DNA from: Paenibacillus sp. cl123
GTDB taxonomy: Bacteria; Bacillota; Bacilli; Paenibacillales; NBRC-103111
NCBI RefSeq assembly: GCF_900101595.1
Contig: NZ_FMYY01000001.1
Coordinates: 876,585 to 940,584 of the forward strand
Reading direction: 5' to 3'
DNA: 64,000 nt
The notes under the pieces were generated by a model. The model was not told the origin of the DNA and searched no databases. It saw only the letters and a program-made list of their open reading frames with translations. Every line of letters begins with the position of its first letter. Position 1 is the stretch's first letter. Below are positions 3,001 through 33,289 of this stretch, one piece after another. Made by a program: the position numbers and the translations under genes.

Positions 3001-5300
3001 GGCTTGCCGATCCGGAGTGGATCTATGACCCGAGCGGATATGCGTACGAGGTGACGGAGGTCAACCGGATTGAAGGCGTCAAAACGACGGTCTTGCGCTG
3101 GGACGAAGGGGCGCAGCGTTGGAACATCTGGAATGCCGGGCCTTACGGGCAGATGAACCCGATCTATACCGATCCGCAGGGCCGCTATGCTTGGGATGTG
3201 CCGGAAGGTAAATGGAAGGTGCTCTACGAGAAGGAGGGCTATCTGCCGGCCGAGAGCGAGGAGCTCGTCGTGCTGCCGCCGCATTTCGATGTCAACATTC
3301 CGATGATATCCACGCTTCCGGCTAGGCCGATCAAAACCTCGGTTGCGCCGGGCGGGGCGAGCATCGAACTGCTGTTTGACCGCCATGTGCGAAGCGAAGC
3401 GGCGGACGACGGTCTGCTGGTTGTCGTATCGGAGGAATCCGGCGAAGAAGTGGCAGGCGAATGGCAGGCGCTGGAGCCGATCGCCATTAACGGGGCACAG
3501 GCGTCCGCAAGGCTTCGGTTCACACCGGACGATCCGCTGACGGTAGGCGCGGTCTATCGCGTGACAGCGGAAGCGGCGCTGCAATCGTACGCCGGCGTTC
3601 CAACGGGCGAACGTTACGAAGCCGAAGTCACCGTGACCGCTGCTGATACGACACCGCCGCTTCCGGTTGAAGGGCTGCAGGTTGAGGTTGACGCGAAGCG
3701 GGCATTGCTGAACTGGCGGTTGCCAAGGGATCCCGAGCTCGTGAAGGTGGAGCTGCGCTACAAGGAGCAAGCCGCGTCAGGCGAGGCCGGCGAAGTCGAG
3801 ATTCCGGCCGATCAGCCATTCGCGCTGGTCGAGGGGCTGAGCGAATCAACGAATTATGTGTTCCAAATTCTCGCTTACGATGCGGCGGGAAATTATAGTA
3901 CGGCTGAAGTTAAGGCCAGCACGGGCAGTCCGGGGAGCATCGGGCCGGATGTGACGCCTCCTGCGGCCATTCGGGAGCCTTCCGCCAAGGCCGCCGCTAC
4001 CGAAATCGAATTGACCTGGAGCGACCCGGCGGATCCGGACCTTGCCATCGTGAATCTGCAATGGACGAAGACGGGTCAACCGTTCGAAGGCGAACCCGTG
4101 GACGTAAGGAAGGGCGTAGGAAGGTTCGCAATTACAGGGCTGACCCCGGCTACCGAATACGAAATCCGGCATTGGACGGTCGACGAGAGCGGAAATGCTT
4201 CCACAGCGGAGTCGCTGTTCGTCACGACAACCGCCGGCGGAGGCGGCCCGACAGGGCCAACCGATCCGACTGATCCCCCAGATCCTCCCGGCCCAACCGA
4301 TCCGCCCAGTCCGACAAGCCCAACGGGACCGGTCGGCGAACCGGACACCGGCAGTGCGGAGCTCGGCGAAGAGGCGGTTTCCTTCAGCCTGTTCGACGGC
4401 AAGCTGCGATTCTCGCTGCTCGCAGGGAGTAGGGGAACTGCAAGGAAGCTGACGGCCTTGCGCATAGCCGACCCTGTGAAGCCGAGCGATAAGCGGCTGC
4501 GCCTGCTGTCGAGTGCGTACGAGTGGAAGCTTGACAACGGAAAAACGCTGGCAAAGCCGGGACGGTTGACACTTGCATACGACAAGGTCGCGTTTGGCTT
4601 GGGCGATCCCCGTAAGCTGGGCGTCTACCGGCTGGATGCGGCGAGCGGTGTCTGGCGTTATGCTGGCGGCGTCGTGGACGCAAGAGGAGGTGCCGTAGAG
4701 CTTGAGACGGCTCTGCCGGGCGTCTACGCGGTACTGGTCGCGGCATACGGCTTTAGCGATCTGGACGACCACTGGGGACGCGCCGATATCGAGGCGCTCG
4801 CCGCTCGCGGCATCGTGACCGGCGATCCAGGCGGAACGTTCCGTCCGAACGGCAGCGTCACGCGCGCCGAGTTCGTGAAGCTGATGGCTTCGCTTATCGA
4901 TGCGGAGCCGATCGAGGGAGCCAAGCCGTTCGACGACGTGCCTGCGGATGCCTGGTACGCCGAAGCGATAGCCGAGGCGAGTGCGGCGGGCGTCGTCGTC
5001 GGAGACGGCGGAAAGTTCAGGCCCAACGATCCGGTCTCGCGCGAGGAGATGGCCGTCATGCTTTACCGGGCGAGCGTTCCTGATGCCGCTGGCGATCCGA
5101 GCACGTCTTCGCTTGACGGCTATCTGGACGGCGGCGAGGTGTCCGCGTGGGCCCGCGAGGCGGTTGCTTACGAGGTGCGGAGCGGCACACTCCAGGGAAG
5201 CGGCGGACTGCTGAAGCCGACCGCGACCGCCACACGGGCGGAGGCTGCGGCGGTGATTGCCCGGAAGCTGGACGCTCTTGGCCTACTGGTCAAACATTAA
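3..5300 (+). CDS. Giant SLH-domain surface protein, 5' end outside the window
   Basis: The frame is open to the window edge and no signal peptide is visible, so the true start lies upstream. Numbering from the GTG at 18 (1,760 residues), I see a carboxypeptidase-regulatory-like beta domain at about 120-175, Ig-like beta-rich stretches, a glycine/alanine-rich hydrophobic stretch at about 928-965, and a Lys/Pro-rich hinge followed by a second carboxypeptidase-like domain with the DPSGYAYE and WDVPEGKW motifs. Two fibronectin type III domains follow (about 1210-1300 and 1311-1405), then a Pro/Thr/Gly linker and three SLH repeats from about 1576 to the end. SLH repeats bind secondary cell-wall polymer, so the protein is probably attached to the cell surface. 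The rest looks like a long stalk or adhesin. No catalytic domain is recognisable. A strong terminator follows. Confidence 0.9.
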   Translation: MSTGGVDMLEEGGMAPITLSWGDAIEVEAEPMLPASLSIVAIDSQDVGLKDIHVLVSDENGRPLASGITQESGQLDLGILKGMVGKTAVIRAEPQDGYDEPAEIPVLLDPGMNRQEIMLSRTMDAVLEGKVYQPNGTPLEGAVVTVVQGGAKYTASTDAEGTYSLNVPSLGSSVQAVADGVFPSVPQWIRAVPGRQTVDIQIDTALPAVVKVNLYTQSGEGAWVGPYALDWTERIHFRVRADKPIWAEPNNDTMLLVADPGEKVSICADGTEGGYSLSCADTVIDDNRRGTVELRLRDTAATVVGRLSNLLEGVSQYDYSLFEVTDEGRRRAERSGSFYSAEFSLKLKGGLHYELEVRSPDGNQSVVQFFETQAGSRTDLGELPLGTAGILAGKPGNVVWIGSGKPTAGGMAQVRSTYSNSSAHPLMEVAAVLDVPADTELISGTVILNGTAVEPDLQNGRYTVPLGTIGAGKGGSLQYKLRIAANPAAGRIMFEPAIRYKLDGIAREEKIGRAEADLTPVTLKAPSRTGQRDLTVTGSAPPGSRVTLYEGDIVLGVTEASPAGLWDVTTHIPGEGATALWRLRANAESETGRWSSSVVSVRYDKGLPEPVSFTMRQADGRLITLDPRAGESKFPYVFVPGKPFTLTVAFTDPQLVKDTTFLFGDQRIPASLQNGVYQAVIPAQTKGAPIGFDYTEKEPMASIDAPPPPPEELKRRLPPSFRDATTDYLYISPRQNNGTKQSASYKGTLPNPNGDAQMDINATLEEMKYTPSQDELDQAERTGIPLYGFRHSLSFRDGVLRAELTGYLPADRFSHGLDVEKAITELVAAAELNVVRIPSSGKTPKGSVSVQSVPNAIQAVKVTVDLAMRSKAGENTWKTIDAAFSLHGGLGVNDTLVDLEKLMDKIALSCRPELVPIYLEGIMLIRNKIIMAELMKAGMMVAGTVFGPATFGMGTVGMFLATNMMGKVLDATVASSMAKLDASVDETCETKNKPKKPKKRLADPEWIYDPSGYAYEVTEVNRIEGVKTTVLRWDEGAQRWNIWNAGPYGQMNPIYTDPQGRYAWDVPEGKWKVLYEKEGYLPAESEELVVLPPHFDVNIPMISTLPARPIKTSVAPGGASIELLFDRHVRSEAADDGLLVVVSEESGEEVAGEWQALEPIAINGAQASARLRFTPDDPLTVGAVYRVTAEAALQSYAGVPTGERYEAEVTVTAADTTPPLPVEGLQVEVDAKRALLNWRLPRDPELVKVELRYKEQAASGEAGEVEIPADQPFALVEGLSESTNYVFQILAYDAAGNYSTAEVKASTGSPGSIGPDVTPPAAIREPSAKAAATEIELTWSDPADPDLAIVNLQWTKTGQPFEGEPVDVRKGVGRFAITGLTPATEYEIRHWTVDESGNASTAESLFVTTTAGGGGPTGPTDPTDPPDPPGPTDPPSPTSPTGPVGEPDTGSAELGEEAVSFSLFDGKLRFSLLAGSRGTARKLTALRIADPVKPSDKRLRLLSSAYEWKLDNGKTLAKPGRLTLAYDKVAFGLGDPRKLGVYRLDAASGVWRYAGGVVDARGGAVELETALPGVYAVLVAAYGFSDLDDHWGRADIEALAARGIVTGDPGGTFRPNGSVTRAEFVKLMASLIDAEPIEGAKPFDDVPADAWYAEAIAEASAAGVVVGDGGKFRPNDPVSREEMAVMLYRASVPDAAGDPSTSSLDGYLDGGEVSAWAREAVAYEVRSGTLQGSGGLLKPTATATRAEAAAVIARKLDALGLLVKH

Positions 5301-7200: not shown

Positions 7201-7218
7201 AACATTGGAGCGATCATT

Positions 7219-7363
7219 TTGAAAACATACCGGACGATTATTTTTTGACGTTGACGATACGCTGCTGGATTTTGGCTCGGCTGAAAAAGCGGCACTTCGC
7301 TTGCTGTTTGAGCAGCAAAACATTCCCTATACAGATGAAATTGAGGCGCATTACAAAAGGTAA
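7219..7363 (+). pseudogene. Relic of a YfnB/YjjG-type HAD phosphatase gene
   Basis: A TTG preceded by GGAG opens a frame reading MKTYRTIIF, which breaks in a run of six T at 7241-7246. Removing one T gives DVDDTLLDFGSAEKAALRLL, the first catalytic motif (DxDxT) of a HAD hydrolase, closest to the YfnB/YjjG nucleotidases. That frame stops at 7363, so only about 47 of the usual 230 or so residues remain. The single-base slip could be a sequencing error, but the early stop and missing body show the gene is dead. Confidence 0.75.
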
Positions 7364-7399: not shown

Positions 7400-7507
7400 A
7401 AAATGATACTTAAAGTCCGTCGACTGCGACGTGCAAATCCGATTAACATGGAGGTATTGCGTGGAAGTTTGCACTGAAGGATGTTCGCTTGCGCCTGAAG
7501 GAGCTTA
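7400..7507 (+). pseudogene. Relic of the promoter and 5' end of an XRE regulator gene
   Basis: This stretch aligns without gaps to the leader of the XRE gene at 29949: the dyad AGTCCGTCGACT (7414-7425), then CGATTAACATGGAGG identical in both, then a start codon (GTG at 7461) exactly 47 bp after the dyad start, as in the intact gene. The coding part continues with ACTGAAGGATGTT (ACTGAAGAATGTT in the intact gene), lacks about 26 bp, and resumes with GCTTGCGCCTGAAGGAGCT, which matches codons for GLRLKEL. The similarity then ends. It is a degraded third copy of this gene family. Confidence 0.75.
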
Positions 7508-7528: not shown

Positions 7529-8266
7529 ATGAGCACTTATCATCTGCTCGACATCAATTTTGAAACTAACGGACAAAAACAGGTCATTACCCCGATTCTT
7601 CTTCAAAATGAGCTCGATACGATTCTCATCGATTGCGGTTATCCCAATTTTTTGCCTCTTATTGAAGAAGCTGCTAACCGGTATAACGTTACTCTCGATT
7701 CCCTCACTAAAGTAATCGTGACTCATCACGATATGGATCATATGGGATCGCTCGCTGCCTTGAAGAGGACGTACCCGCACATTGACATCATCGCCCACGA
7801 GCTAGAAGCGCCTTATATTGAAGGCACGAAAAAATCGTTGCGGCTGGAACAGGCCGAATCAACGTTTAACGCACTGACGGATGAAGCGAAGCCGTATGCA
7901 GAGCAATTTATTCGCTTCCTACAGTCAATCGAGCCGGCTGCAGTCGATCGGACTGTGACCCATGAGGAATGGCTTCCTTGGTGCGGCGGGATTAAGATCA
8001 TCCACACTCCAGGACATATGCCCGGGCATATCTCCTTGTATTTGCCTGCCAGCAAAACGCTGATCGCTGCAGATGCCGTCGTCATCGAGGAAGGCGAGCT
8101 CGCCATCGCTAATCCCCAGTATACAATGGATTTGGATGAGGCGATCCGGTCCGTAGAGCGATTGCTGGATTACGACATTGAGCAGATTATTTGCTATCAT
8201 GGGGGGTTATTTCATGGCGATGTTCAACAAGCACTCCAACAACTCATTCATAAATATAAGTCTTAA
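7529..8266 (+). CDS. Metallo-beta-lactamase-fold hydrolase (THxDxDH subgroup)
   Basis: 245 residues. The metal-binding loop is THHDMDH at residues 65-71, in which the second histidine of the usual HxHxDH is aspartate; related Firmicutes hydrolases share this variant. Further ligands are the His of TPGHMPGH (about 158), the Asp of AADAVV (about 180) and the His of CYHGG (about 225). AAGGAGG lies 7 bp before the ATG. It is the first gene of a three-gene set with a P450 (75 bp away) and another MBL-fold enzyme. The substrate cannot be assigned; lactonase, glyoxalase II-like or thioesterase activity are all possible. Confidence 0.85.
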   Translation: MSTYHLLDINFETNGQKQVITPILLQNELDTILIDCGYPNFLPLIEEAANRYNVTLDSLTKVIVTHHDMDHMGSLAALKRTYPHIDIIAHELEAPYIEGTKKSLRLEQAESTFNALTDEAKPYAEQFIRFLQSIEPAAVDRTVTHEEWLPWCGGIKIIHTPGHMPGHISLYLPASKTLIAADAVVIEEGELAIANPQYTMDLDEAIRSVERLLDYDIEQIICYHGGLFHGDVQQALQQLIHKYKS

Positions 8267-9733: not shown

Positions 9734-10609
9734 ATGCATTCGATTAAGCAAATCGGCGAGCGTTTTTGGTACATGACGCCCGAATTTGAGAACGACCGTC
9801 CCGTACTGGGGATGGTCGTTGGCCGAAATAAGACTTTAATGATCGATGCGGGCAACTCGGAAAGTCATGCCCAATATTTCTTGAACGAACTACGCAAAAG
9901 AGAGATTGCCGGCCCCGATTTTGTGGCGCTTACCCATTGGCATTGGGATCACATTTTCGGTCTGTCAGCTTTGACAGATGCCGTGTCTATTGCTTCCAAA
10001 GCAACGAAAAAGGAAATGGAAAAGCTCCTGCCTTATTCTTGGTCGGATGAGGCGTTAGCTGCTCGTGTAAAGGAAGGAACGGAAATTCAGTTTTGCGCGG
10101 ATGCCATTAAAAAAGAATACGCAAGTCAAAGAGATATCAAGATTATATTGCCGAAAATGATATTTGACTACCGGTTGGAAATCGACCTTGGAGGCGTCAC
10201 TTGCCTTGTGCAGCAGGTGGGGGGGAGTCACGCTTCGGACTCTGTTGTCGTATATGTGAAAGAAGAGAAAATTCTGTTTTTGGGCGACTGTATCTGTGCA
10301 GATATTTATGCGAAAAACAGGAATTATAAAATCGATGAAACCCTTCGGCTGCTCGATCGATTAGCGGCCTTTGATGCAGACACGTATGTGCTCTCCCATG
10401 GGCTTCCTATTTCGAAGAACGAGTTTGAACAGGAAATCACCATGCTCAGAGCAATCGCGACCTTGACGGACCGGTTAAAGGGAAATATCCAACATGTGAT
10501 GGAGACGTATGAGAAATTGGTAGAGCGGGAGCTTACGGAAGATGAGCTGGAAGTCATCCATGAATTCGCGATGGGGTATTTCTTTCGATCGGTGGCCCAT
10601 TCGATCTAA
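9734..10609 (+). CDS. Metallo-beta-lactamase-fold hydrolase (canonical HxHxDH)
   Basis: 291 residues with the full zinc set: THWHWDH at 67-73, a His in GGSHASD near 170, an Asp in LGDCICAD near 188 and a His in LSHGLP near 220. The early part (MTPEFENDRPVLGMVVG) is typical of the large MBL-fold family found beside biosynthetic or detoxification genes. It starts 42 bp after the P450 stop with its own AGAGAGGA site, so it is very likely cotranscribed. It is not a recent duplicate of the MBL gene at 7529: the metal motif and length differ. Confidence 0.88.
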   Translation: MHSIKQIGERFWYMTPEFENDRPVLGMVVGRNKTLMIDAGNSESHAQYFLNELRKREIAGPDFVALTHWHWDHIFGLSALTDAVSIASKATKKEMEKLLPYSWSDEALAARVKEGTEIQFCADAIKKEYASQRDIKIILPKMIFDYRLEIDLGGVTCLVQQVGGSHASDSVVVYVKEEKILFLGDCICADIYAKNRNYKIDETLRLLDRLAAFDADTYVLSHGLPISKNEFEQEITMLRAIATLTDRLKGNIQHVMETYEKLVERELTEDELEVIHEFAMGYFFRSVAHSI

Positions 10610-23370: not shown

Positions 23371-26300
23371 ATGTTGACCCATAATGCACGGAAGATCTTT
23401 GCTTTCCTTGTCGCCGTTATCGGATTTTGTTTGATTTTTTCCGTCACTCCGGTTAGCACCGCTTTCGCCTTGAAGGAACGTGCGCCGATTGCGCCGGAAG
23501 CGAAGGAGTCCTATGCCGGGGTAATTAATGCAGAATGGATGGAGTTCTGCTTAGTGGATACGCCGTATTCCGATGAGAACGTAACGGACACTGACAATTA
23601 TACGATTACGAGCACGGACGATCCGGATTTCTCCGGGGGCGTCACGCCGATCTTGGTTCATTACCGCTATTTCCCCGAGCAGGCCCCGTACAATCCGTCC
23701 CATAAGGAGAATAAGGGTAAGATTCAAGTCTTCTATCGGGCGTTTCTCAAATTGCCTTCCTCCGTAAAGTTCAAGGAGGGCAAAACCTATTCCATTGCTA
23801 TTAAACCCGCGGTTGCTCAGGCAGGACCATTTTCCTTCAAGTTTGACCTGACCAAACCGAATCTGGTCATCCACTCGAACCAGGTCGGCTATCTGTCGGA
23901 AGGGAAGAAGATCGCCTATCTGTCTCTTTGGACCGGTCAAGGAAGCGTCGAGTTCGGCGCTTATAAGACGTTTTATGTACGGGATCAAACCGGAAAAAGA
24001 GTTTACACCGGACCGGTCACTGCCCCGGATCCTTTCGTCATTGAACGGTGGAGCAAAAGCTACATCTATACGCTGGACTTCAGCGCTCTGCAGGCGGAAG
24101 GAACCTATGAGCTGTATATCCCGGGCGTCGGCGTTTCGTATCCCTTCAGGATCAGCAGCCGGATTTACAAGGACGACATCGCCTATACCATTACGCGTGC
24201 CTTATTCCATCAGCGCGACGGCGAGCATGGACTGGATAACCCTGAATATACCCACTGGAACCGTCCGCCTGCGCATTTGGACGATGCGATCGACCAGGCG
24301 CTTTATCTCGCGAACAACAAGGATGCAACGAAGGCTAAAGTGGACCTGACCGGCGGGCACATGGATGCGGGAGACCGGGGTAAGTACCCGTACAACTCTG
24401 CATACGTCGGCATCGATATGCTGATGGGCGCCCAATATTATCCGCAGCAGGTCGAAGCGCTGGGCGAGTCGCTGGAAATTCCGGAATCGAAAAACGGCGC
24501 GCCCGATTTTCTGGATGAGCTCGTTTACGAGCTCGACTGGCTGTATAAAGCGATCACGAAAACCTCGACGAACGGCATGCTGGCGAATTACCTTCGGCCG
24601 CAGGGCGGCAATCCTAACGAGGGGACGTACGAAGCCGGCCAGCCGCTGACAGGCGCTACAAACCGGATGTTCTATAACGCCACGCAGGGACCGAACAGGG
24701 CCGAGACGTTATTTGCAGCGGGCGTCATGGCGCAAGCTTACAATACGCCGCTTATGCAAAAGTATTATCCGGATAAGGTCAAGGACTATCTGGAGGCTGG
24801 CAAAAAAGCCTTCAACGGATTCATCCAGTATGGAGACAATAAGGAGCATGGAACCTATTACGACCAGACCCCGAATGGAACGATAAAAACCTGGTCGAAT
24901 GAAGTGGTCCTGGCTGCCAGCGCGCTGATGGTCGCGACTGGTGACGTCGAGAAATACATGCCCTATCTCAACAACCACATGCCAAGCATGGATGATCCAA
25001 CCTATAAGAGCATCAAGCTTTGGACGTGGGTGCTGGACCGGTCTTGGCTCGGCGCCTTCGTATCGATGTACGAGAACCCGTATCTCACTCAGGAACAGAG
25101 AAATTGGGCTTATGCCGGCATTATTAATTTCGCGGAGTCGGAATTGAAAAACGAGTCGCCGTTCGGCGCTTCCACGCAGGATGACGGCTTCAAAACGGAT
25201 CAGATCGGCTGGCGATTCACCAGCTCGAACCTAATGCCCGTCTTGGTCGGATATGCCGTCACCGGTGAAGCCAAATACCTGGAGCGGATACAGCGGACAT
25301 GGGACTATACGCTGGGCGGCAATGCGGTCAGCCGGTCGTTCATTACGGGGCTCGGCGATCCGCAGCGGGAGCCGCGCTGGTTCGTTCACGAGATTAACCA
25401 GTACCAATGGGTTCAGCATAAGCAGGCGGAGGCGCAAAACATGAAGGGCGGCTGGGTGGAACCGCCACCAGGCTATCCGAACTCGGATCTGCAGAGTACG
25501 CCATATCCGTACTGGTTCGACGATGCGCATAATACGGTGGCGAAGACGAAGAGCTTTCCGATTTACAAGGATCATGCCATTATGTACCGGTATACGGATT
25601 CGTGGAATGTGGTCAACGAGTTTTCCGTCAACATTTTGTCGGCGAACGCGACATCTATGCTTCCGTTGATTCCGCTGAATACCCACATCCTTACCGTGAA
25701 CGCCGGCGGCGGAGAGGTGCTTCCCGCAGGCGGCAGCTACGCAGAGGGTATGGAGCTGACGCTTACGGCGAAGGCGAAAGCCGGGCTCAAGTTCTCTCAT
25801 TGGAGCGGAAGCGTAACGGGCACGAATAGTACGGTTACGCTCACGATGGACGGGGCAAAAAACGTTGAAGCTCATTACGACGAGGTTCCCGTTAAAACGC
25901 TCAAGGTGAGTGTGGTTAACGGAACCGTCACGCAGGAGAATGCAGACGGAAACTACAGCCAGGACGATATCGTCACGCTAACCGCGGAGCCGGCATATGG
26001 CTATAAATTCCTGGAATGGTCCGGGGCGGCGACGGGAACGAATCCGACCGTAGACATCGTGATGGACGACAACAAATTCATCACCGCCCACTTCGTGCGG
26101 CTGCCCGAGTATACGCTTTCGGCCGGCGTCTCAGATACGCTGAAGGGGACGATCAAGATCAACCCGATCAAAGCGACTTACCTGGAAGGGGAAGAAGTCA
26201 TCCTTACGGCCGTCAAGAAATTCGGGTACCGGTTTAGCGGCTGGACCGGCTTTGACGGCACCGACAATCCCGCTATCGTCCAGATGAACGGCAACAAAAA

Positions 26301-29169
26301 GATTACGGCCAACTTCGCGGCTGTGCCGACCTATACAATTGCCTTCACGTCATCGGAAGGCGGCAAAGTCACGTCCGTCATTAATAAACCGGAGAATATG
26401 CAGGACGGAAAATACGAAGAAGGGACTATTGTGACACTTACGGCAGCAGCCAAACCAGGCTATCTGTTCACCGGCTGGAGCGGCGATATCGTCGGCAGTG
26501 CGAACCCGCTCAAAATCACGGTCGACGGCAGCAAATCGGTCACGGCCAACTTCAAGCCGGCATACGGGCTGATGAGCGTGGATGTCACGCCTGTCGCCGG
26601 ACAGCCGGGCAGCACGACGGTAACGGGTGACGTCTATACGCTGACCAGCCACGGCACAAAATTCGGCGTTGCGCCCGACAGCTTCCGGTATCTGCTGCGT
26701 GCGGGGCAGAAAGGCGACACGGTCTTCACCGCCAGACTGGACTCCTTCACCACCGATAATCCGACTGGAGCCGTAGCCGGCATCCAGATGCGCTCGAGTT
26801 TGGCGGACGATGCCTATTACGCCGCGATTCTGGTGAAGAACGGCAAACTCATCGTCCAGATGAGAAAAGGCGGTCCGTGGTTCGATGTGCTGCCGAAACC
26901 GCCGTTTGTTCACATCGATGCGGAGCTGCCGATCTGGCTGCAAATCAAGCGAACCCTAAACCGGGACGTAGAGCTGAGCTGGTCGAATGATGGCGTAAAC
27001 TGGAACAGCTATTACAAGGACACTATCTGGGGGTGGGACGGGGCCAATACCGAGCTGACGATGGGCCTGTTTGTTTCCGCCGGCGAGAACAATACGGAAA
27101 CCATAAAGACGGCGGCCGCCCAGTTCAGCGAGGTCAACTGGCCGGGCATGCATTACCTTACGGTGAATGCCGGCCAGGGGGGATCGGTGGAAGGCGAATC
27201 CGGTCTATATAACGCAGATTCGGAGATCAGGCTGAGAGCGGTGCCGAATGACGGGTATGCCTTTACCGGCTGGGAACAGGATCTGACGGGAAAGGCGAAC
27301 CCTAATGTTGTGAAGATGGATGGAAATAAGACTGTTAAGGCCACCTTCAGCAAGATGCCTGATATCTGTGAGCTGACCGTGGAGAACGTCACAGGAGGCA
27401 CCATCGTGCTCGACCCCCCCGGCGGCAAATACGCGCCAAATACGGTGGTCAAGGTGAGGGCGATACCCGACAAAGGGTACAGCTTTGTCTCCTGGGGAGG
27501 GGATCTGATCGGTACGGCAGATTCCATCGATCTACTGATGGACGGACATAAAACGATCTCGGCGAAGTTCGTACCGTACAAGAACGCCGATATTCTGACC
27601 ACCCATCCGGGCAGCACGGCCGAAGACGACAGCGGGATCACGGTCCGTGCATCCGGAAGCGCCCTGTGGGGAGAAAACGACAGCTTCCGTTACACCTACA
27701 AAGACAACCTGAGCGGCGATGCCGTTATGGTCGCCAAGGTGACCGAGTTTAACGGAACGGCTAGCAATGCGCGGGCAGGTATTATGATCCGGCAGATAAC
27801 CGACTTGCCGAACGACTACCAAGGCATCTTCATCACCAATGAGAAGAAAATACGCAGTCAGTTCCGCATCAACAACAAGTGGACGGTCGTCGAGTACCCG
27901 GCTAACGGGCAGGTTGCCGACGCCTTGGATCTTCCGGTATGGCTGAAGGTGGAGAAGATCGGCACGCGGCTGACCACGTACTCCTCGGCGGATGGCGAGA
28001 ACTGGGTCCAGAGGGGCTCCCAGACGATCGCATCCATCCAGGGTTCGTATACGGCGGGGCTGGCCGTGACCGCAGGTCAAGACGGGAAGTTCGTCACGGC
28101 CAAGTTCGGTCATGTGGAGTGGCCGGCTGTGCCTACGTTTGCCTTACAGACCGAAGCCGTTAACGGAATGATCTCGGTCAGCCCGTCGGGTGCTGTACAT
28201 CCGGCAGGCACCGAGGCGACGGTGACCGCAAGCGCGTATACCGACTACGTCTTCACCGGCTGGAGCGGCGACCTGAGCGGCTTGACCAATCCGGCCACGA
28301 TTACGATGAATGCCGACAAGCTCATCAAGGCTAATTTCAGGAAGCAAACGGACAAATACACGCTCACCGCCACAGCAGAGCATGGCGTTATTACACGGAG
28401 CCCTGAGCAGGAATCCTACAGCCCGGGGTCGCAAGTCATCCTGACCGTTACGCCAAATGAACGCTACGTCTTCTTGGGCTGGAGCGGCGATGTCGTCAGC
28501 ACCTCGAACCCTCTTACCGTCATCATGGATGGGAACAAAACGCTTACCGCAAACTTTGCTTTTGTGCTAAAGCCCGGGGACTATGAAAATGCGGATGTCG
28601 GAGGAGCAGCCAACGGCGCTACGGTTCATGAAGGAGCCTCCATGAAGGTAACGGGCTCCGGAACGAACGTCTGGGGCATGACCGACAAGTTCAGGTATGT
28701 TTACCAGCATGTAAAAACCGGCGATGCTGCGATCGTCGCCAGAGTCGACGGGATGACCTACTCGGGCAGCGCGCCGCATTCGGACATCAAGGTCGGCCTC
28801 ATGCTCCGTCAAAGCGAGGCGGCAGATAGCGCCCATCAAGGCATATTCGTGAGCGGCAGAGGCGAGCTCGTAAGCATCAAGCGCGATTTTGCCGGAGCGT
28901 GGTCGCAGATCATTCCATCCGATGCACCTCTCGTGAAGGTTTCAGGGCCTATCTGGCTGAAGATCGAGAAGACGGGGGATGTCGTGAAGACTTACTCATC
29001 CATCGACGGCGCGGAATGGATCGAGCGAAGCGCGCACACCCTAGCCCTCGCTAGTCCTTATACGATGGGGTTGGTCGTTTCCGCGGGTATGGATGGCCAG
29101 TTCGTCGAGGGAACCTTCAGCAACATCATGTGGCCGGTGCTCCCAGCGGCTGACGATCAGCCGGAATGA
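23371..29169 (+). CDS. Secreted multimodular GH9 glycoside hydrolase
   Basis: 1,932 residues. A signal peptide (about 1-33, ending STAFA) is followed by a CelD_N-type Ig-like domain (about 165-262) and a GH9 (alpha/alpha)6 catalytic domain (about 270-760). The base motif is GGHMDAGDRGKY (328-339), RSFITGLG lies near 652, and the general acid Glu is in VNEFSVNILSA near 749. Then come eight divergent InlB B-repeat-like units of 65-75 residues (signature FTGWSGD...N..TANF) and three jelly-roll, DUF1349-like modules, in the order 4 repeats, module, 2 repeats, module, 2 repeats, module. There is no SLH, sortase or dockerin signal, so it is probably released. GH9 enzymes cut beta-glucans and related polymers; exact specificity unknown. 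Confidence 0.9.
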   Translation: MLTHNARKIFAFLVAVIGFCLIFSVTPVSTAFALKERAPIAPEAKESYAGVINAEWMEFCLVDTPYSDENVTDTDNYTITSTDDPDFSGGVTPILVHYRYFPEQAPYNPSHKENKGKIQVFYRAFLKLPSSVKFKEGKTYSIAIKPAVAQAGPFSFKFDLTKPNLVIHSNQVGYLSEGKKIAYLSLWTGQGSVEFGAYKTFYVRDQTGKRVYTGPVTAPDPFVIERWSKSYIYTLDFSALQAEGTYELYIPGVGVSYPFRISSRIYKDDIAYTITRALFHQRDGEHGLDNPEYTHWNRPPAHLDDAIDQALYLANNKDATKAKVDLTGGHMDAGDRGKYPYNSAYVGIDMLMGAQYYPQQVEALGESLEIPESKNGAPDFLDELVYELDWLYKAITKTSTNGMLANYLRPQGGNPNEGTYEAGQPLTGATNRMFYNATQGPNRAETLFAAGVMAQAYNTPLMQKYYPDKVKDYLEAGKKAFNGFIQYGDNKEHGTYYDQTPNGTIKTWSNEVVLAASALMVATGDVEKYMPYLNNHMPSMDDPTYKSIKLWTWVLDRSWLGAFVSMYENPYLTQEQRNWAYAGIINFAESELKNESPFGASTQDDGFKTDQIGWRFTSSNLMPVLVGYAVTGEAKYLERIQRTWDYTLGGNAVSRSFITGLGDPQREPRWFVHEINQYQWVQHKQAEAQNMKGGWVEPPPGYPNSDLQSTPYPYWFDDAHNTVAKTKSFPIYKDHAIMYRYTDSWNVVNEFSVNILSANATSMLPLIPLNTHILTVNAGGGEVLPAGGSYAEGMELTLTAKAKAGLKFSHWSGSVTGTNSTVTLTMDGAKNVEAHYDEVPVKTLKVSVVNGTVTQENADGNYSQDDIVTLTAEPAYGYKFLEWSGAATGTNPTVDIVMDDNKFITAHFVRLPEYTLSAGVSDTLKGTIKINPIKATYLEGEEVILTAVKKFGYRFSGWTGFDGTDNPAIVQMNGNKKITANFAAVPTYTIAFTSSEGGKVTSVINKPENMQDGKYEEGTIVTLTAAAKPGYLFTGWSGDIVGSANPLKITVDGSKSVTANFKPAYGLMSVDVTPVAGQPGSTTVTGDVYTLTSHGTKFGVAPDSFRYLLRAGQKGDTVFTARLDSFTTDNPTGAVAGIQMRSSLADDAYYAAILVKNGKLIVQMRKGGPWFDVLPKPPFVHIDAELPIWLQIKRTLNRDVELSWSNDGVNWNSYYKDTIWGWDGANTELTMGLFVSAGENNTETIKTAAAQFSEVNWPGMHYLTVNAGQGGSVEGESGLYNADSEIRLRAVPNDGYAFTGWEQDLTGKANPNVVKMDGNKTVKATFSKMPDICELTVENVTGGTIVLDPPGGKYAPNTVVKVRAIPDKGYSFVSWGGDLIGTADSIDLLMDGHKTISAKFVPYKNADILTTHPGSTAEDDSGITVRASGSALWGENDSFRYTYKDNLSGDAVMVAKVTEFNGTASNARAGIMIRQITDLPNDYQGIFITNEKKIRSQFRINNKWTVVEYPANGQVADALDLPVWLKVEKIGTRLTTYSSADGENWVQRGSQTIASIQGSYTAGLAVTAGQDGKFVTAKFGHVEWPAVPTFALQTEAVNGMISVSPSGAVHPAGTEATVTASAYTDYVFTGWSGDLSGLTNPATITMNADKLIKANFRKQTDKYTLTATAEHGVITRSPEQESYSPGSQVILTVTPNERYVFLGWSGDVVSTSNPLTVIMDGNKTLTANFAFVLKPGDYENADVGGAANGATVHEGASMKVTGSGTNVWGMTDKFRYVYQHVKTGDAAIVARVDGMTYSGSAPHSDIKVGLMLRQSEAADSAHQGIFVSGRGELVSIKRDFAGAWSQIIPSDAPLVKVSGPIWLKIEKTGDVVKTYSSIDGAEWIERSAHTLALASPYTMGLVVSAGMDGQFVEGTFSNIMWPVLPAADDQPE

Positions 29170-29405: not shown

Positions 29406-29901
29406 TTGCGTCCGGCCCTAGAAGCAAGGAGGCAGAACATTTATGAGCTTTCCAGTGAAGGATGAACTTTCACTATTTATCGGAAATGTTTGTTTCTATC
29501 TTTGCGGACATAATAAAGAATGAACTTCTATCGAAGCGAGCCTGCGCTTAACCGGTGTTCATCCATTTATTTCTATCGATTATGTTTATATCTATGTATT
29601 TTGCGTTCAAAAAACGAATACGAATGGCGATAGAATTCGATAAATTCTTAGATTGAACTTCAGTCGGCGCGCCACCATAATTGAGATATGAATACCGGAA
29701 TGAGCCGCCGGAACTGCCGAATTCGGATACTCAGAGCGGCCGGCCAACGCGGCGAGCAGGCTGCCGCTCATTCGGGCGGAGACGCATACGCATCATTTGT
29801 CCATATGCGCTTAGTGATACCTTTCCGATAAGCTGGCTCCGGCCCCGTGCCGGCGTCAGCTTGTTCATTCATTTGCCGGGATACAAAAGAATGAGACTTA
29901 T
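29406..29901. other. Gene-free stretch before XRE gene 1
   Basis: No convincing gene. An AAGGAGG at 29426-29432 opens a 26-codon frame (29443-29523) with no recognisable product. The middle part is AT-rich, the later part GC-rich without clear coding signal. Confidence 0.4.
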
Positions 29902-29913
29902 AGTTCGTCAACT
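29902..29913 (+). promoter_or_regulatory. XRE dyad, copy 1 (AGTTCGTCAACT)
   Basis: AGTT-CGTC-AACT. The relic at 7414 and the minus-strand copy at 33262 have AGTC-CGTC-GACT, so both arms change together and the dyad is kept. It lies 47 bp before the start of the XRE gene and is probably the regulator's own operator. Confidence 0.6.
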
Positions 29914-29948
29914 CCGTTGCAGGGGACCGATTAACATGGAGGGAAAGC

Positions 29949-30650
29949 ATGGGAATTCGTACTGAAGAATGTTGTCCAATGAATATATTAGAGGATTTCG
30001 GCTTGCGCCTAAAGGAGCTGCGGCTGCGTTCGAACATGTCGCAAGACATGCTCGCCGCCCGTTCGGGATTGGATCGCACCTACATTGGCAGCGTAGAGCG
30101 CGGCGTTCGCAATATTTCGCTGAAGAATATCGAGCTGCTCTGTAATACGCTTGATGTTGACATCAGCTATTTTTTCCTGCACGAGCGTTTCTCCCTACAT
30201 ACGGCGTCCTTGAAAAAGGAGCTGGAACGACCGCTCCGTGAGCGCTTCAACTATCGCGTTGATCCGGTGTACAATGTCATCACCTGGCAAGTCACCGGCG
30301 GGATCAGCAGGGATGAGATTAGACAAATCGTGGCCGACCTCAAGAGCGCCTGCCTGCAGCTTGTTTCCGGCAAGGTCAAACTGCTGATCGATAACCGGAA
30401 AATGATGGTGCAAGGACAACCTATCGTGTTTCAACAAGAAGTCAACGAGAAATGGGAGGAGTTGCAGAGATGGTTTCTGCCTTATTGCGAACAAGTCGTC
30501 GTCTTGTGTAACTCCAAGCTTATGCAAAACCAAATGAATCGGCTTGCCAAACGGAGCGGAATCATTAAAGTTCAGAAAAGCCTTTTCGCCGAAGGGGAGG
30601 CTTGGCTTAGCGAAGACCCGGACCCTTGCTCGTTTTTCGAAACGCGTTAG
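29949..30650 (+). CDS. XRE-family regulator with C-terminal STAS-like domain, paralogue 1
   Basis: 233 residues. An XRE/SinR-type helix-turn-helix spans about 17-70 (MSQDMLAARSGLDRTYIGSV then ERGVRNISLKNIELL), close to restriction-modification controller proteins in this part. The remaining 150 residues contain alternating strands and helices with DNRKMMVQGQP, WFLPYCEQVVVLCNS and QMNRLAKRSGI, which suggests a STAS- or SpoIIAA-like fold; this is inference. ATGGAGGG before 29949 fixes the start. Its close paralogue is on the other strand at 32525-33196, facing it across a stalk-domain surface protein. There is no cysteine or metal cluster to suggest a ligand. Confidence 0.85.
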   Translation: MGIRTEECCPMNILEDFGLRLKELRLRSNMSQDMLAARSGLDRTYIGSVERGVRNISLKNIELLCNTLDVDISYFFLHERFSLHTASLKKELERPLRERFNYRVDPVYNVITWQVTGGISRDEIRQIVADLKSACLQLVSGKVKLLIDNRKMMVQGQPIVFQQEVNEKWEELQRWFLPYCEQVVVLCNSKLMQNQMNRLAKRSGIIKVQKSLFAEGEAWLSEDPDPCSFFETR

Positions 30651-31001
30651 GTGCATCTTTAAGTTATACATCTGAAAAGAAGCGTTAGAGGAGCGAAACC
30701 GTTTATCATAACACCAAAATTGACGTTCCCAGAATTCTGCTGGTCAAACACCCGGAACACTTTCCCTAATTTTTTTAGCCACTCAAAGTCGTCTTCCTCT
30801 TATAATTGAAACAATATATCTTCCATTGAAATTGTAACTCTGCTTTTCGTCATTTGCCACCTCCGCTATAGTTTGCTGAACGCTCCCACCTGGATTCCGA
30901 ATCATTAGAGTTGGGCCCAACGCAATGCGGCCATCGGCTTGTATAAAGAGCCGATGGCCTTATTCGTATCCTATTGGGAGATGCAACGGATTACTTCTTC
31001 A
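30651..31001. other. Gene-free stretch between convergent genes, with hairpin
   Basis: About 350 bp without a recognised gene. At 30929-30959 an 11-bp perfect stem (GGCCATCGGCT/AGCCGATGGCC, 9-base loop) lies close to the 3' end of the minus-strand gene and may act as its terminator, though neither strand has a strong T-run. GTTGGGCCCAAC at 30910-30921 is a 12-bp palindrome. Confidence 0.5.
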
Positions 31002-32384
31002 TTATTGCTCTTTAGCATCCGTGATGAAAATCTCGCCTTCGTCGAAGAACACCTTCATACCGAGCGACTCGCTTACGAAACGAACGGGCACTAATGTAAT
31101 GTCGTTTTTCACAATCGCCGGTGAATCCAACAGCACTGCCTTCCCGTTCACAGCAGCTTGTTTGGCATCGATCACAAGCTCGATCTTCTCCGAACCTTTC
31201 GTAATGGTAACCCGGCGATCTGTATTATCCCAGTCTACCTTTGCGCCAAATGCCTCGCTGACGAACCGGACTGGCACCATAGTACGACCTTCCTGCGAAA
31301 AAGGTGCGACTTCCAGCTTGAAATATTTATCATCAACCGTCGCATCCTCCGAATTTAACTTCAGCGAGATGGTCTTGAACGGAAAGACCGAGTCGTCCTT
31401 GTAGATGGAGCCTTCCTTGCCGAACTCGATCGGCTTGGACTTCACAGTGCCGAACTGCGTCTCGACCTCAATCACGTAATGCTGGCCGTTTTTAATCGAG
31501 CCGTTATTGGTTGCAAACAAATCCAAAGCGACAACTCCCTGGAACGCGCCAACCGGAATCGTCTCATCTTTGTTGAACTCGGGGTTGATGATCTCATCTC
31601 CCTTGACGAGCCCCAGGAGCCAACCCACACCGGCCCGGTTGGTGCGCCAAATGCCGGCAGATACTGCTTTACCGTCCTTGTCTGTCGGACGAAGAATGAC
31701 TGAAAGCACTTGAATCTTTTGCGCGAACGCTAGCTTCAACTTGAAATGGCCGTCTTTGCTCCCGTCCTCTCCGAACGCAGCGCTTCCGATCTTGTCCTGA
31801 TTCAGATCGACCCAGCCGAATTCGCGGATAATTACTGGTGCGTAGGAGGTATCGGCGTCAACAAAAGGCGTAACTTCCGATTTGACAAGTCCGTCACTTG
31901 TCATGATCTCCAAGTAGTAATATTCGCCATCCTTCATGCTATTATTGTCAGAGGCATACAATTCGAATTGATTAACTCCCTTGAATGAACCTAGCGATGA
32001 TTGAAATGTGCTGTTAACCGCCTTCCCGTCATGCTCTACGGCAAGCAGATATTTACCTACGTCGCCCGGTTCCTTCCATGTCGTCCATACGCCGTGTCCC
32101 GTATCGCTTCCTTTTTTGTCAGCAGCCTTCATCGTAATGGACTTGATTTCCGTTCCTTCGCCGGCATCGAACAGCAGACTGAGGTGACCGTCACGCGTAC
32201 CGTCCGGCGTGCCTATTTTCTCCAGCGAAATCCGGTCCATTTCCTTATCCAGATATTGGAATTTCTTGATTTGTACATTTGTTTTCGAGTTTTCTGCCCC
32301 TAAGGCAACCCCGCCTATTATCATTCCATTGAATAGTACAGCACCGATTATTGTTGTTTGCAGGGTTCGTATAAACTTTTTCAC
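31002..32384 (-). CDS. Secreted protein with copper-amine-oxidase-type stalk domain
   Basis: 460 residues; the start is GTG with GAGGAGG 7 bp upstream. A signal peptide (1-29, ending ALGA) is followed by two similar beta-sandwich repeats of about 140 residues (each opening with a strand, then GxxDGxxDGHxxLxF, and ending in a YxLEIxT-like strand). The C-terminal stalk domain (about 340-455) has the paired MVPVRFVSEAFGAKV and LVPVRFVSESLGMKV motifs of the Cu_amine_oxidN1 family. Despite the name these domains are not oxidases; they occur on many Paenibacillus surface proteins. It lies 140 bp downstream of XRE paralogue 2 on the same strand, so it may be cotranscribed. Confidence 0.85.
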   Translation of the reverse strand: MKKFIRTLQTTIIGAVLFNGMIIGGVALGAENSKTNVQIKKFQYLDKEMDRISLEKIGTPDGTRDGHLSLLFDAGEGTEIKSITMKAADKKGSDTGHGVWTTWKEPGDVGKYLLAVEHDGKAVNSTFQSSLGSFKGVNQFELYASDNNSMKDGEYYYLEIMTSDGLVKSEVTPFVDADTSYAPVIIREFGWVDLNQDKIGSAAFGEDGSKDGHFKLKLAFAQKIQVLSVILRPTDKDGKAVSAGIWRTNRAGVGWLLGLVKGDEIINPEFNKDETIPVGAFQGVVALDLFATNNGSIKNGQHYVIEVETQFGTVKSKPIEFGKEGSIYKDDSVFPFKTISLKLNSEDATVDDKYFKLEVAPFSQEGRTMVPVRFVSEAFGAKVDWDNTDRRVTITKGSEKIELVIDAKQAAVNGKAVLLDSPAIVKNDITLVPVRFVSESLGMKVFFDEGEIFITDAKEQ

Positions 32385-32524
32385 TGTTGCTCCTCCTCGT
32401 AATTTGCTTTCCTTACCTTTGTCTTTTAGCTTTTGGGGTCAAACCGGATCTTGAAGGCCCCACCAAAGTTCTTCTGCTGGTGAGCGTGTCACGGTTGCAG
32501 TGCTTATTCCTATTCTCCTTTCAT

Positions 32525-33196
32525 TCAGTGAGTCTCGAATAAAAAGCTCGGGTCCATGTTTTTTGTCAGCCAATCTTCTTCTTGCTGGAAAAGACTCTTT
32601 TGCACGGCAATGATTCCGCTTCGATTCGCCAATCGTTTCATCTGGTTCTGCATGAGCTTGGAATTGCACAAGACGATAACTTTCTCACTGTGAGGCAAGA
32701 ACCAGCGCTGCAGTTCTTCCCAACGCTCCGTGATTTCAGGCTGAAACACAAGAGGCTGCCCCCCTAACATCATCTTCCGGTTATCGATCAGAAGCTTTAC
32801 TTGTCCGAGTACAAGCTGGCGGCAGGCGGATTTTAAATCTGCAGTTATGCTTGTGACTTCATCCAAACTTAAAGCTCCAGCTACCTGCCAGCTGATTAGG
32901 TTTCGCTCCACATCGACGCGATAGCAGAACCGTTCTTGAATCGGCCGTTTCAGTTCGCTCTTTAGATGAGCTGAATGTAAGGAAAAGCGTTCGTGATCGA
33001 AAAAATAACTGATGTCAACATCAAGCGTATTACAGAGCAGCTCGATATTCTTCAGCGAAATATTGCGTTCGCCACGTTCCACGCTCCCAACATACGTGCG
33101 GTCCAGTCCGGAGCGGGCTGCCAGCATATCCTGCGACAGATTCGAGCGCAGGCGCAGCTCCTTCAACCGTAGTCCGAAATCAGATAAAATATTCAT
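32525..33196 (-). CDS. XRE-family regulator with C-terminal STAS-like domain, paralogue 2
   Basis: 223 residues from the ATG at 33196, chosen because GAGAAGGA lies 8 bp upstream and the paralogue's homology begins at MNIL; the frame extends to 33229. The helix-turn-helix is nearly identical to that at 29949 (LSQDMLAARSGLDRTYVGSV, ERGERNISLKNIELL). The C-terminal half has diverged but keeps KLLIDNRKMM, GQPLVFQ, EELQRWFLP, VLCNSKLMQNQM and RSGII. The two genes are in inverted orientation, so the locus carries an inverted repeat of about 0.7 kb. The stalk-domain gene at 31002 follows on the same strand. Confidence 0.85.
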   Translation of the reverse strand: MNILSDFGLRLKELRLRSNLSQDMLAARSGLDRTYVGSVERGERNISLKNIELLCNTLDVDISYFFDHERFSLHSAHLKSELKRPIQERFCYRVDVERNLISWQVAGALSLDEVTSITADLKSACRQLVLGQVKLLIDNRKMMLGGQPLVFQPEITERWEELQRWFLPHSEKVIVLCNSKLMQNQMKRLANRSGIIAVQKSLFQQEEDWLTKNMDPSFLFETH

Positions 33197-33261
33197 GGCG
33201 ACCATCCTTCTCGCATTCCTCTGCCGCATTTATTTATATATTAATATGGAAAGCGCGGGTA

Positions 33262-33273
33262 AGTCGACGGACT
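33262..33273 (-). promoter_or_regulatory. XRE dyad, copy 2 (AGTCCGTCGACT on the minus strand)
   Basis: On the minus strand the dyad is preceded by AAATGATACTCAT, matching AAATGATACTTAA in front of the relic at 7414. It lies 77 bp before the chosen start of XRE gene 2. Confidence 0.55.
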
Positions 33274-33289
33274 ATGAGTATCATTTATG

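Follow-up and report, generated by a model that had tools for sequence, protein, structure and literature searches.

A putative C-box-type operator before C-protein-like XRE regulators with a predicted STAS-like domain in Paenibacillus and related genera

Restriction-modification (R-M) systems have their textbook timing switch in controller (C) proteins, which have been described as proteins of a helix-turn-helix (HTH) domain only, tied to R-M. PMC3758141 describes their binding sites, the C-boxes, as inverted repeats of GACT with a TATA spacer, in which GAC/GTC and a TG on the outside are specifically contacted; the left-operator oligonucleotide of C.Esp1396I starts ATGTGACTTATAGTC. For PvuII, PMC3695507 reports that C protein activates from the left operator (OL) and represses from the right operator (OR), which overlaps the -35 hexamer, and that C-dependent transcription rises strongly when OR is disrupted. 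Here we describe an element of this kind in a 64,000-nucleotide stretch of the genome of Paenibacillus sp. cl123 (contig NZ_FMYY01000001.1, positions 876,585 to 940,584; the window), where it precedes two paralogous XRE regulator genes, XRE1 (29949..30650, plus strand) and XRE2 (32525..33229, minus strand), and the relic of a further copy at 7.4 kb. We consider it probable that XRE1 and XRE2 are C-protein-type autoregulators, most likely activators, that have been co-opted to serve a chromosomal regulon.

The first-pass annotation had noticed a 12-bp dyad in front of these three copies, and all three dyads were confirmed: AGTTCGTCAACT at 29902-29913 (plus strand) upstream of XRE1, and AGTCCGTCGACT at 33262-33273 (minus strand) before XRE2 and at 7414-7425 (plus strand) before the relic. 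The pattern AGTYCGTCRACT matches the window three times where 0.02 matches are expected, far above chance, and none of 100 shuffles reached three, while the looser AGTY-N4-RACT is unremarkable (5 matches, 2.1 expected). As a unit the dyad holds only in part, since it is the right part of an element of about 22 bp, TGATACTYATAGTCCGTCGACT, whose left half, GAYACTYATA, is no less conserved. A search that included the left half (ATACTTATAGTCCGTCGACT, at most 3 mismatches) returned the same three places, with 0.00 expected. The complete operators are TGAGACTTATAGTTCGTCAACT at 29892..29913 (plus strand; half-sites GACT, AGTT, and AACT) for XRE1, TGATACTCATAGTCCGTCGACT at 33262..33283 (minus strand) for XRE2, and TGATACTTAAAGTCCGTCGACT at 7404..7425 (plus strand) for the relic. 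Judged from its sequence, the element is of C-box-type design, with three half-sites (GACT/AGTC/GACT) arranged as GAyACT-yAT-AGTC-CGTC-GACT and an outer TG. The inverted GACT/AGTC half-sites (GACT-N3-AGTC; TACT for GACT in 23/25 of the window type defined below), the TATA-like spacer, and the outer TG are common to the systems of C.AhdI, C.BclI, C.Esp1396I, and C.PvuII, as are the location of the site at the -35 hexamer and the placing of an operator before the regulator's own gene. Unlike in those systems, the second box is reduced and sites stand before several unrelated chromosomal genes.

Over the complete genome (7.27 Mb), the 12-mer by itself shows no enrichment (6 matches versus 12 for a reversed control) and was dropped as a genome-wide mark because the reversed control is commoner. 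The 23-mer ATGATACTTATAGTCCGTCGACT, in contrast, gave 5 matches when up to 3 mismatches were allowed, and its reversed control none. These five are the three sites of the window, C19:586009 before a third, decayed XRE copy, and C19:598186 in front of an esterase gene; the sixth match of the 12-mer (C22:72672) lies within the reading frame of an ABC-transporter permease, named by eye, and was judged to be due to chance. When 84,980 species genomes were scanned with ATACTYATAGTYCGTCRACT, 19 stretches were returned, 17 of them in Paenibacillus or Cohnella records and 2 in unrelated ones.

Conservation was assessed in the 330 nt upstream of 74 homologous XRE stretches from 392 genomes of the order, a set that includes the duplicate-genome pairs L022/L109, L025/L110, L032/L117, and L033/L115. 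In 61/74 leaders, no more than 3 of 100 shuffles equaled the score of the best element match, and TGnnACTnATAGTC is present at up to 2 mismatches in 52/61 distinct leaders. Loss of the dyad from homologous leaders, which the first-pass annotation had named as the result that would speak against its proposal, was seen only in a minority, 13/74 leaders being without a convincing element. In homologues at least 64% identical (the window type), the element reads GATACTYATAGTCCGTCGACT and is almost always oriented with the gene. In homologues about 37 to 42% identical (the other type), it reads GTGACTYAWAGTC, followed by CGTGGA, AACAGAC, GACAGAC, or similar, and lies inverted relative to the gene, about 50 to 120 bp before the HTH. 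Three positions never vary in either type, namely the A and C in the first half-site and the T in the second, and the outer TG is almost always retained. Retention of the element with the family down to homologues of about 40% identity, in several genera, supports the earlier suggestion that the dyad belongs to a protein-binding site, most simply an operator of the XRE proteins. The narrower suggestion, that it is the regulator's own operator, agrees with the presence of the element in XRE leaders, but the site would not serve self-regulation only: among 34 distinct window-type sites in genomes that carry the XRE, 16 precede genes other than XRE, and the relic copy fronts a row of MBL-fold and P450 genes.

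The difference between the two versions of the dyad, in which both arms had changed together, had been taken as the argument for selection. The pair at the covarying position is Watson-Crick in 51/52 aligned operators (shuffle mean, 43.6; 0/2,000 reach 51), a figure that is not a probability because the operator sequences are related. The pair is C-G in 47 operators, T-A in XRE1 only, and A-T in three related genes whose right half has changed, and the operator of L161 has an uncompensated T-G (AGTT-CGTC-GACT). A Cohnella homologue 88% identical to XRE1 has the same recognition helix except at S48/G48, yet its operator carries C-G, so that XRE1 has no recognition-helix change that matches T-A. 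With the change from C-G to T-A confined to one lineage and L161 as an exception, covariation was abandoned as the chief argument. The case that the element would be under selection rests on its being conserved between leaders that have diverged, whichever way it points, and also in front of unrelated genes.

XRE1 (233 amino acids) and XRE2 (234 amino acids) are 73 to 75% identical and consist of a C-protein-like HTH domain (residues 11 to 76 of XRE1) fused to a predicted SpoIIAA/STAS-like domain (about residues 82 to 231). Their closest solved relatives by sequence are C.AhdI (1.8e-14), C.BclI (6e-14), and C.Esp1396I (3e-11); SinR and phage repressor-type XRE proteins share the general HTH fold, but the match is far weaker (SinR, 4e-4). 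The PADLOC Control_protein models match XRE1 and XRE2 at 1e-18 and 2e-20, as strongly as they match the C proteins of L171 and L205. Base contacts of C.Esp1396I are made by T36 and R46 according to PMC4041747, and the equivalents in XRE1, with the residue offset inferred from the alignment, are T44 and R54. In 11 aligned rows R54 is invariant and T44 occurs in 10, with Ser in L032. The HTH domain and the base-contacting Thr and Arg thus resemble those of C proteins. In contrast to C proteins, which are described with "no additional domains" in PMC5282649, XRE1 and XRE2 are three times longer and have two domains.

On one full-length structural model (mean predicted local distance difference test score, 72.9; built from 11 sequences), compared by VIA-align, residues 11 to 76 superpose on C.AhdI with a Z score of 14.0 and 50% identity over 66 residues. 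Residues 82 to 231 superpose on the SpoIIAA-like protein 2q3l (Z score, 11.3; root mean square deviation, 3.0; 120 aligned residues; 12% identity), and the C-terminal half has the predicted strand and helix order of the SpoIIAA-like fold, with alternating beta and alpha elements. The Pfam family PF11964 matches XRE1 weakly (E value, 0.005, below the cut-off). Because most rows of the fold search concern the HTH, the C-terminal assignment rests mainly on the 2q3l row and this weak Pfam match; the likeness to SpoIIAA-like/STAS proteins is one of predicted fold, and the XRE version differs from them by its HTH fusion. The C-protein/restriction endonuclease (REase) fusion NsoJS138I (PMC3850674) likewise joins a C-protein domain to a second domain and regulates from a C-box, but there the partner is an endonuclease and the system is still R-M. 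A literature search, which did not cover the 2009 C-protein survey of Sorokin, returned no paper on a C-protein/STAS fusion or on Paenibacillus C-boxes; a prior mention is possible. Frames of about 150 to 180 amino acids that match the STAS-like half only, with no HTH in the match, were seen at L065 to L078, in several genomes from the same genus and family as the window, and these may be stand-alone partners or decayed regulators.

The operators have a fixed relation to a putative promoter. A -10-like hexamer lies 18 bp past the operator of XRE1 (TAACAT, 29932..29937, plus strand), XRE2 (TAATAT, 33238..33243, minus strand), and the relic (TAACAT, 7444..7449, plus strand). More widely, TAnnWT starts 17 to 18 bp after the final ACT in 29/34 distinct window-type sites (21 at 18 bp and 8 at 17 bp) and in 0/8 sites from other genomes, and four of the five exceptions have GATTAAAT in its place. 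Since a -10 hexamer follows at 17 to 18 bp, the box sits on the -35 region of a common promoter; TCGACT lies at -35 with an 18-bp spacer, and this hexamer (TCGACT or TCAACT) is a poor -35 everywhere.

From this geometry a mechanism can be proposed. The XRE proteins would themselves bind the C-box-type operator through their C-protein DNA-binding domain, a dimer occupying the first box (half-sites 1 and 2) just upstream of the poor -35, with half-site 3 on the -35 and the good -10 hexamer 17 to 18 bp on. In C-protein systems, a site in this position (OL) gives activation, and a complete second box covering the -35 (OR) gives repression. The present operators have just one half-site of the second box, and by analogy with PvuII this suggests that the XRE activates, its own gene included, and that repression from the second box is slight or absent. 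A signal or a partner is probably received by the STAS-like domain. We regard as rather unlikely the plainer arrangement in which an XRE protein on the dyad over its own -35 simply represses its own gene. Many XRE/Cro/CI proteins are repressors, and the third half-site does overlap the -35. However, the first box, which is the best conserved, is located upstream of the -35, a poor -35 suits an activated promoter, and C proteins activate from this position according to PMC3695507.

Several observations weigh against activation by a C-protein-type regulator as outlined above. Two adjacent boxes (OL and OR) were not found, only one half-site of the second being conserved, and the first box is imperfect because the window-type first half-site is usually TAC rather than GAC (23/25). 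The perfect inverted pair is formed by half-sites 2 and 3, the dyad of the first-pass annotation, and a dimer may be held by half-sites 1 and 2 or by half-sites 2 and 3. No site occurs within 330 nt of several downstream tandem copies or of L112 and L116, the two close homologues among the 13 leaders that lack the element. The other-type element is inverted and farther from the gene, so that a single promoter mechanism cannot fit all cases. Finally, the profile test of relic origin described below did not support such an origin for 15 of the 17 non-XRE leaders.

The fixed distance to a -10-like hexamer would also be expected if the 22 bp were the -35 region of an alternative sigma factor and not an operator. 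This is very improbable, because the other-type element is inverted and farther upstream of the gene, and the element is also found before R-M controller genes and equals the structurally known C-box. Hardly more tenable is an account without selection, in which the copies are alike merely through recent duplication of XRE genes with their leaders. XRE1, XRE2, and the relic are indeed paralogues, and the leaders of the relic and XRE1 are alike beyond the operator, but as a full account this was refuted, since the element outlasts the divergence of the leaders: it is kept while the leader around it changes, in 37 to 42% identical homologues, inverted, and before unrelated genes. That the dyad acts as a hairpin (AGTC-CGTC-GACT) in the leader mRNA is scarcely credible, for although it could form a short hairpin, it is found in both orientations and, lying upstream of the common -10, would be absent from that promoter's transcript.

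Operator and regulator occur together across the order. The exact window-type motif is present in 7/9 genomes with a window-type XRE and in 0/383 others (Fisher p, 1e-13), and with at most one mismatch in 8/9 and 6/383, respectively. One of the latter matches, in G240, is an R-M controller promoter, and those in G117, G090, G369, G325, and G153, likewise genomes without a window-type XRE, were rejected as partners. The other-type motif was found in 19/43 genomes with an XRE match and 3/349 others (p, 1e-17), and two of these three exceptions are a truncated XRE gene (G026) and a controller-protein gene (G243). An exact other-type element in G288 (C1:1904536; L195) lies where a gene ends, and no XRE is adjacent. 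Matches of the pattern before controller-protein genes in the order number two, L171 and L205. That of L171 has one mismatch and precedes a controller gene accompanied by a type II REase and a methyltransferase (PADLOC, 3e-21, 1e-66, and 1e-175), while the second gene of L205 has no PADLOC match.

Unlike C-protein systems, the window-type XREs have no R-M family among 100 neighbor proteins of their homologues in PADLOC. The neighbor sets, in which proteins above 400 amino acids were cut to 400, were drawn from loci outside the window, without L022, L025, L032, L033, L166, and L161, which are duplicates or fragments. Because of their size and this lack of R-M linkage, XRE1 and XRE2 are best described as proteins that would work like a C protein but are not members of that group. 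R-M subunits, most of them of type I, account for 2 to 3 of the 142 neighbor proteins scanned for the other type (142/177, with 35 near-duplicates omitted). Since the PADLOC alignment scan does not name the matching members, R-M neighbors were located by reading the open reading frames listed, among which tandem other-type copies in L139 (also L133 and L134) adjoin genes that resemble type I R-M by eye; these copies are possibly a surviving link to R-M. In a protein-profile search of 398 genomes of the phylum (at most 7 candidates scored per genome), only two HTH-only matches were found besides the window's own genome, and the fusion therefore looks confined to this order in the sampled genomes.

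The relic indicates how part of a regulon could arise. A profile built from 15 XRE leaders recognizes the relic's leader (nhmmer E value, 4.7e-7), and the remnant of leader and gene start (7431..7505, plus strand) retains about 60 nt of XRE gene with an internal deletion, while operator, spacing, and -10 hexamer are intact. Directly behind this promoter, closely spaced on the plus strand, are an MBL-fold hydrolase-like gene (7529..8266), a cytochrome P450 gene (8342..9691), and a second MBL-fold hydrolase-like gene (9734..10609), both hydrolase names coming from reading the translations. The P450 is 77 to 81% identical to P450s that adjoin an XRE or stand behind their own operator elsewhere: it directly follows the XRE gene in L021 and L111 and has an operator in front in L169 and L184. 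The simplest history, as read from these sequences, would be that an XRE-P450 unit lost its XRE and kept a promoter now served by XRE1 and XRE2. Tested on 17 non-XRE sites, the profile was clear for the 7.4-kb relic and suggestive for L035 (E value, 0.044); the leaders L019, L026, and L182 resemble XRE starts by eye only. The third XRE copy (G000:C19:585174-586031; L166, L217) is a mosaic relic with the operator and a window-type XRE start, a P450 fragment (67% identity over 36 residues), and an XRE C-terminal part like that of the other type.

Homologous site-bearing targets recur in more than one genome, namely P450s (76 to 81% identical between genomes), esterases (83%), S9-like proteins (65%), MSVEVHG proteins (84 to 91%), and copper-amine-oxidase-N proteins (58 to 93%, counting copies behind an XRE or P450). 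A secreted-type protein with a copper-amine-oxidase-N domain is encoded after XRE2 (31002..32384, minus strand), and its 73% identical homologues in two Cohnella genomes each have their own operator. Among the 100 window-type neighbor proteins are 8 P450s, 5 with chemotaxis-receptor domains, 4 with copper-amine-oxidase-N domains, and 3 with CBM_3. The module would no longer control an R-M system but its own gene and a small regulon, in which the P450, the esterase, the secreted copper-amine-oxidase-N protein, and others would be included, and part of this regulon may derive from duplicated XRE genes that decayed and left operator and promoter before the next gene, as at 7404-7505. More tentatively, we propose that the Paenibacillales domesticated an R-M controller which gained a STAS-like sensory domain and lost most of the repressing half-operator, to become a signal-gated, self-amplifying activator with a regulon growing by promoter donation. 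The same switch design is seen here outside R-M, with a DNA code recognizable to the base, a fused sensory-type domain, and a spread over several promoters. The natural series of full regulator, truncated regulator, relic, and bare operator would allow the birth of a regulon to be followed, and the operators form a ready set for asking how loss of the second box alters the circuit.

Some minor features were also seen. Just before the relic operator (7215-7363) is the seemingly broken start of a HAD-hydrolase-like frame, the family being assigned by eye, and upstream of XRE1 (23371-29169) lies a very long GH9 cellulase-type protein (1,932 amino acids) with many repeat modules. In the other-type leaders L127, L129, L132, L134, L138, and L156, a second common stretch resembling CTACAACTTTGACC was noticed by eye in the interval between operator and gene. 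In Paenibacillus endophyticus (L032/L117, around 3518-4611), XRE genes of the two types diverge from one common operator, and in Cohnella thailandensis (L022/L109) one operator is common to an XRE and a P450.

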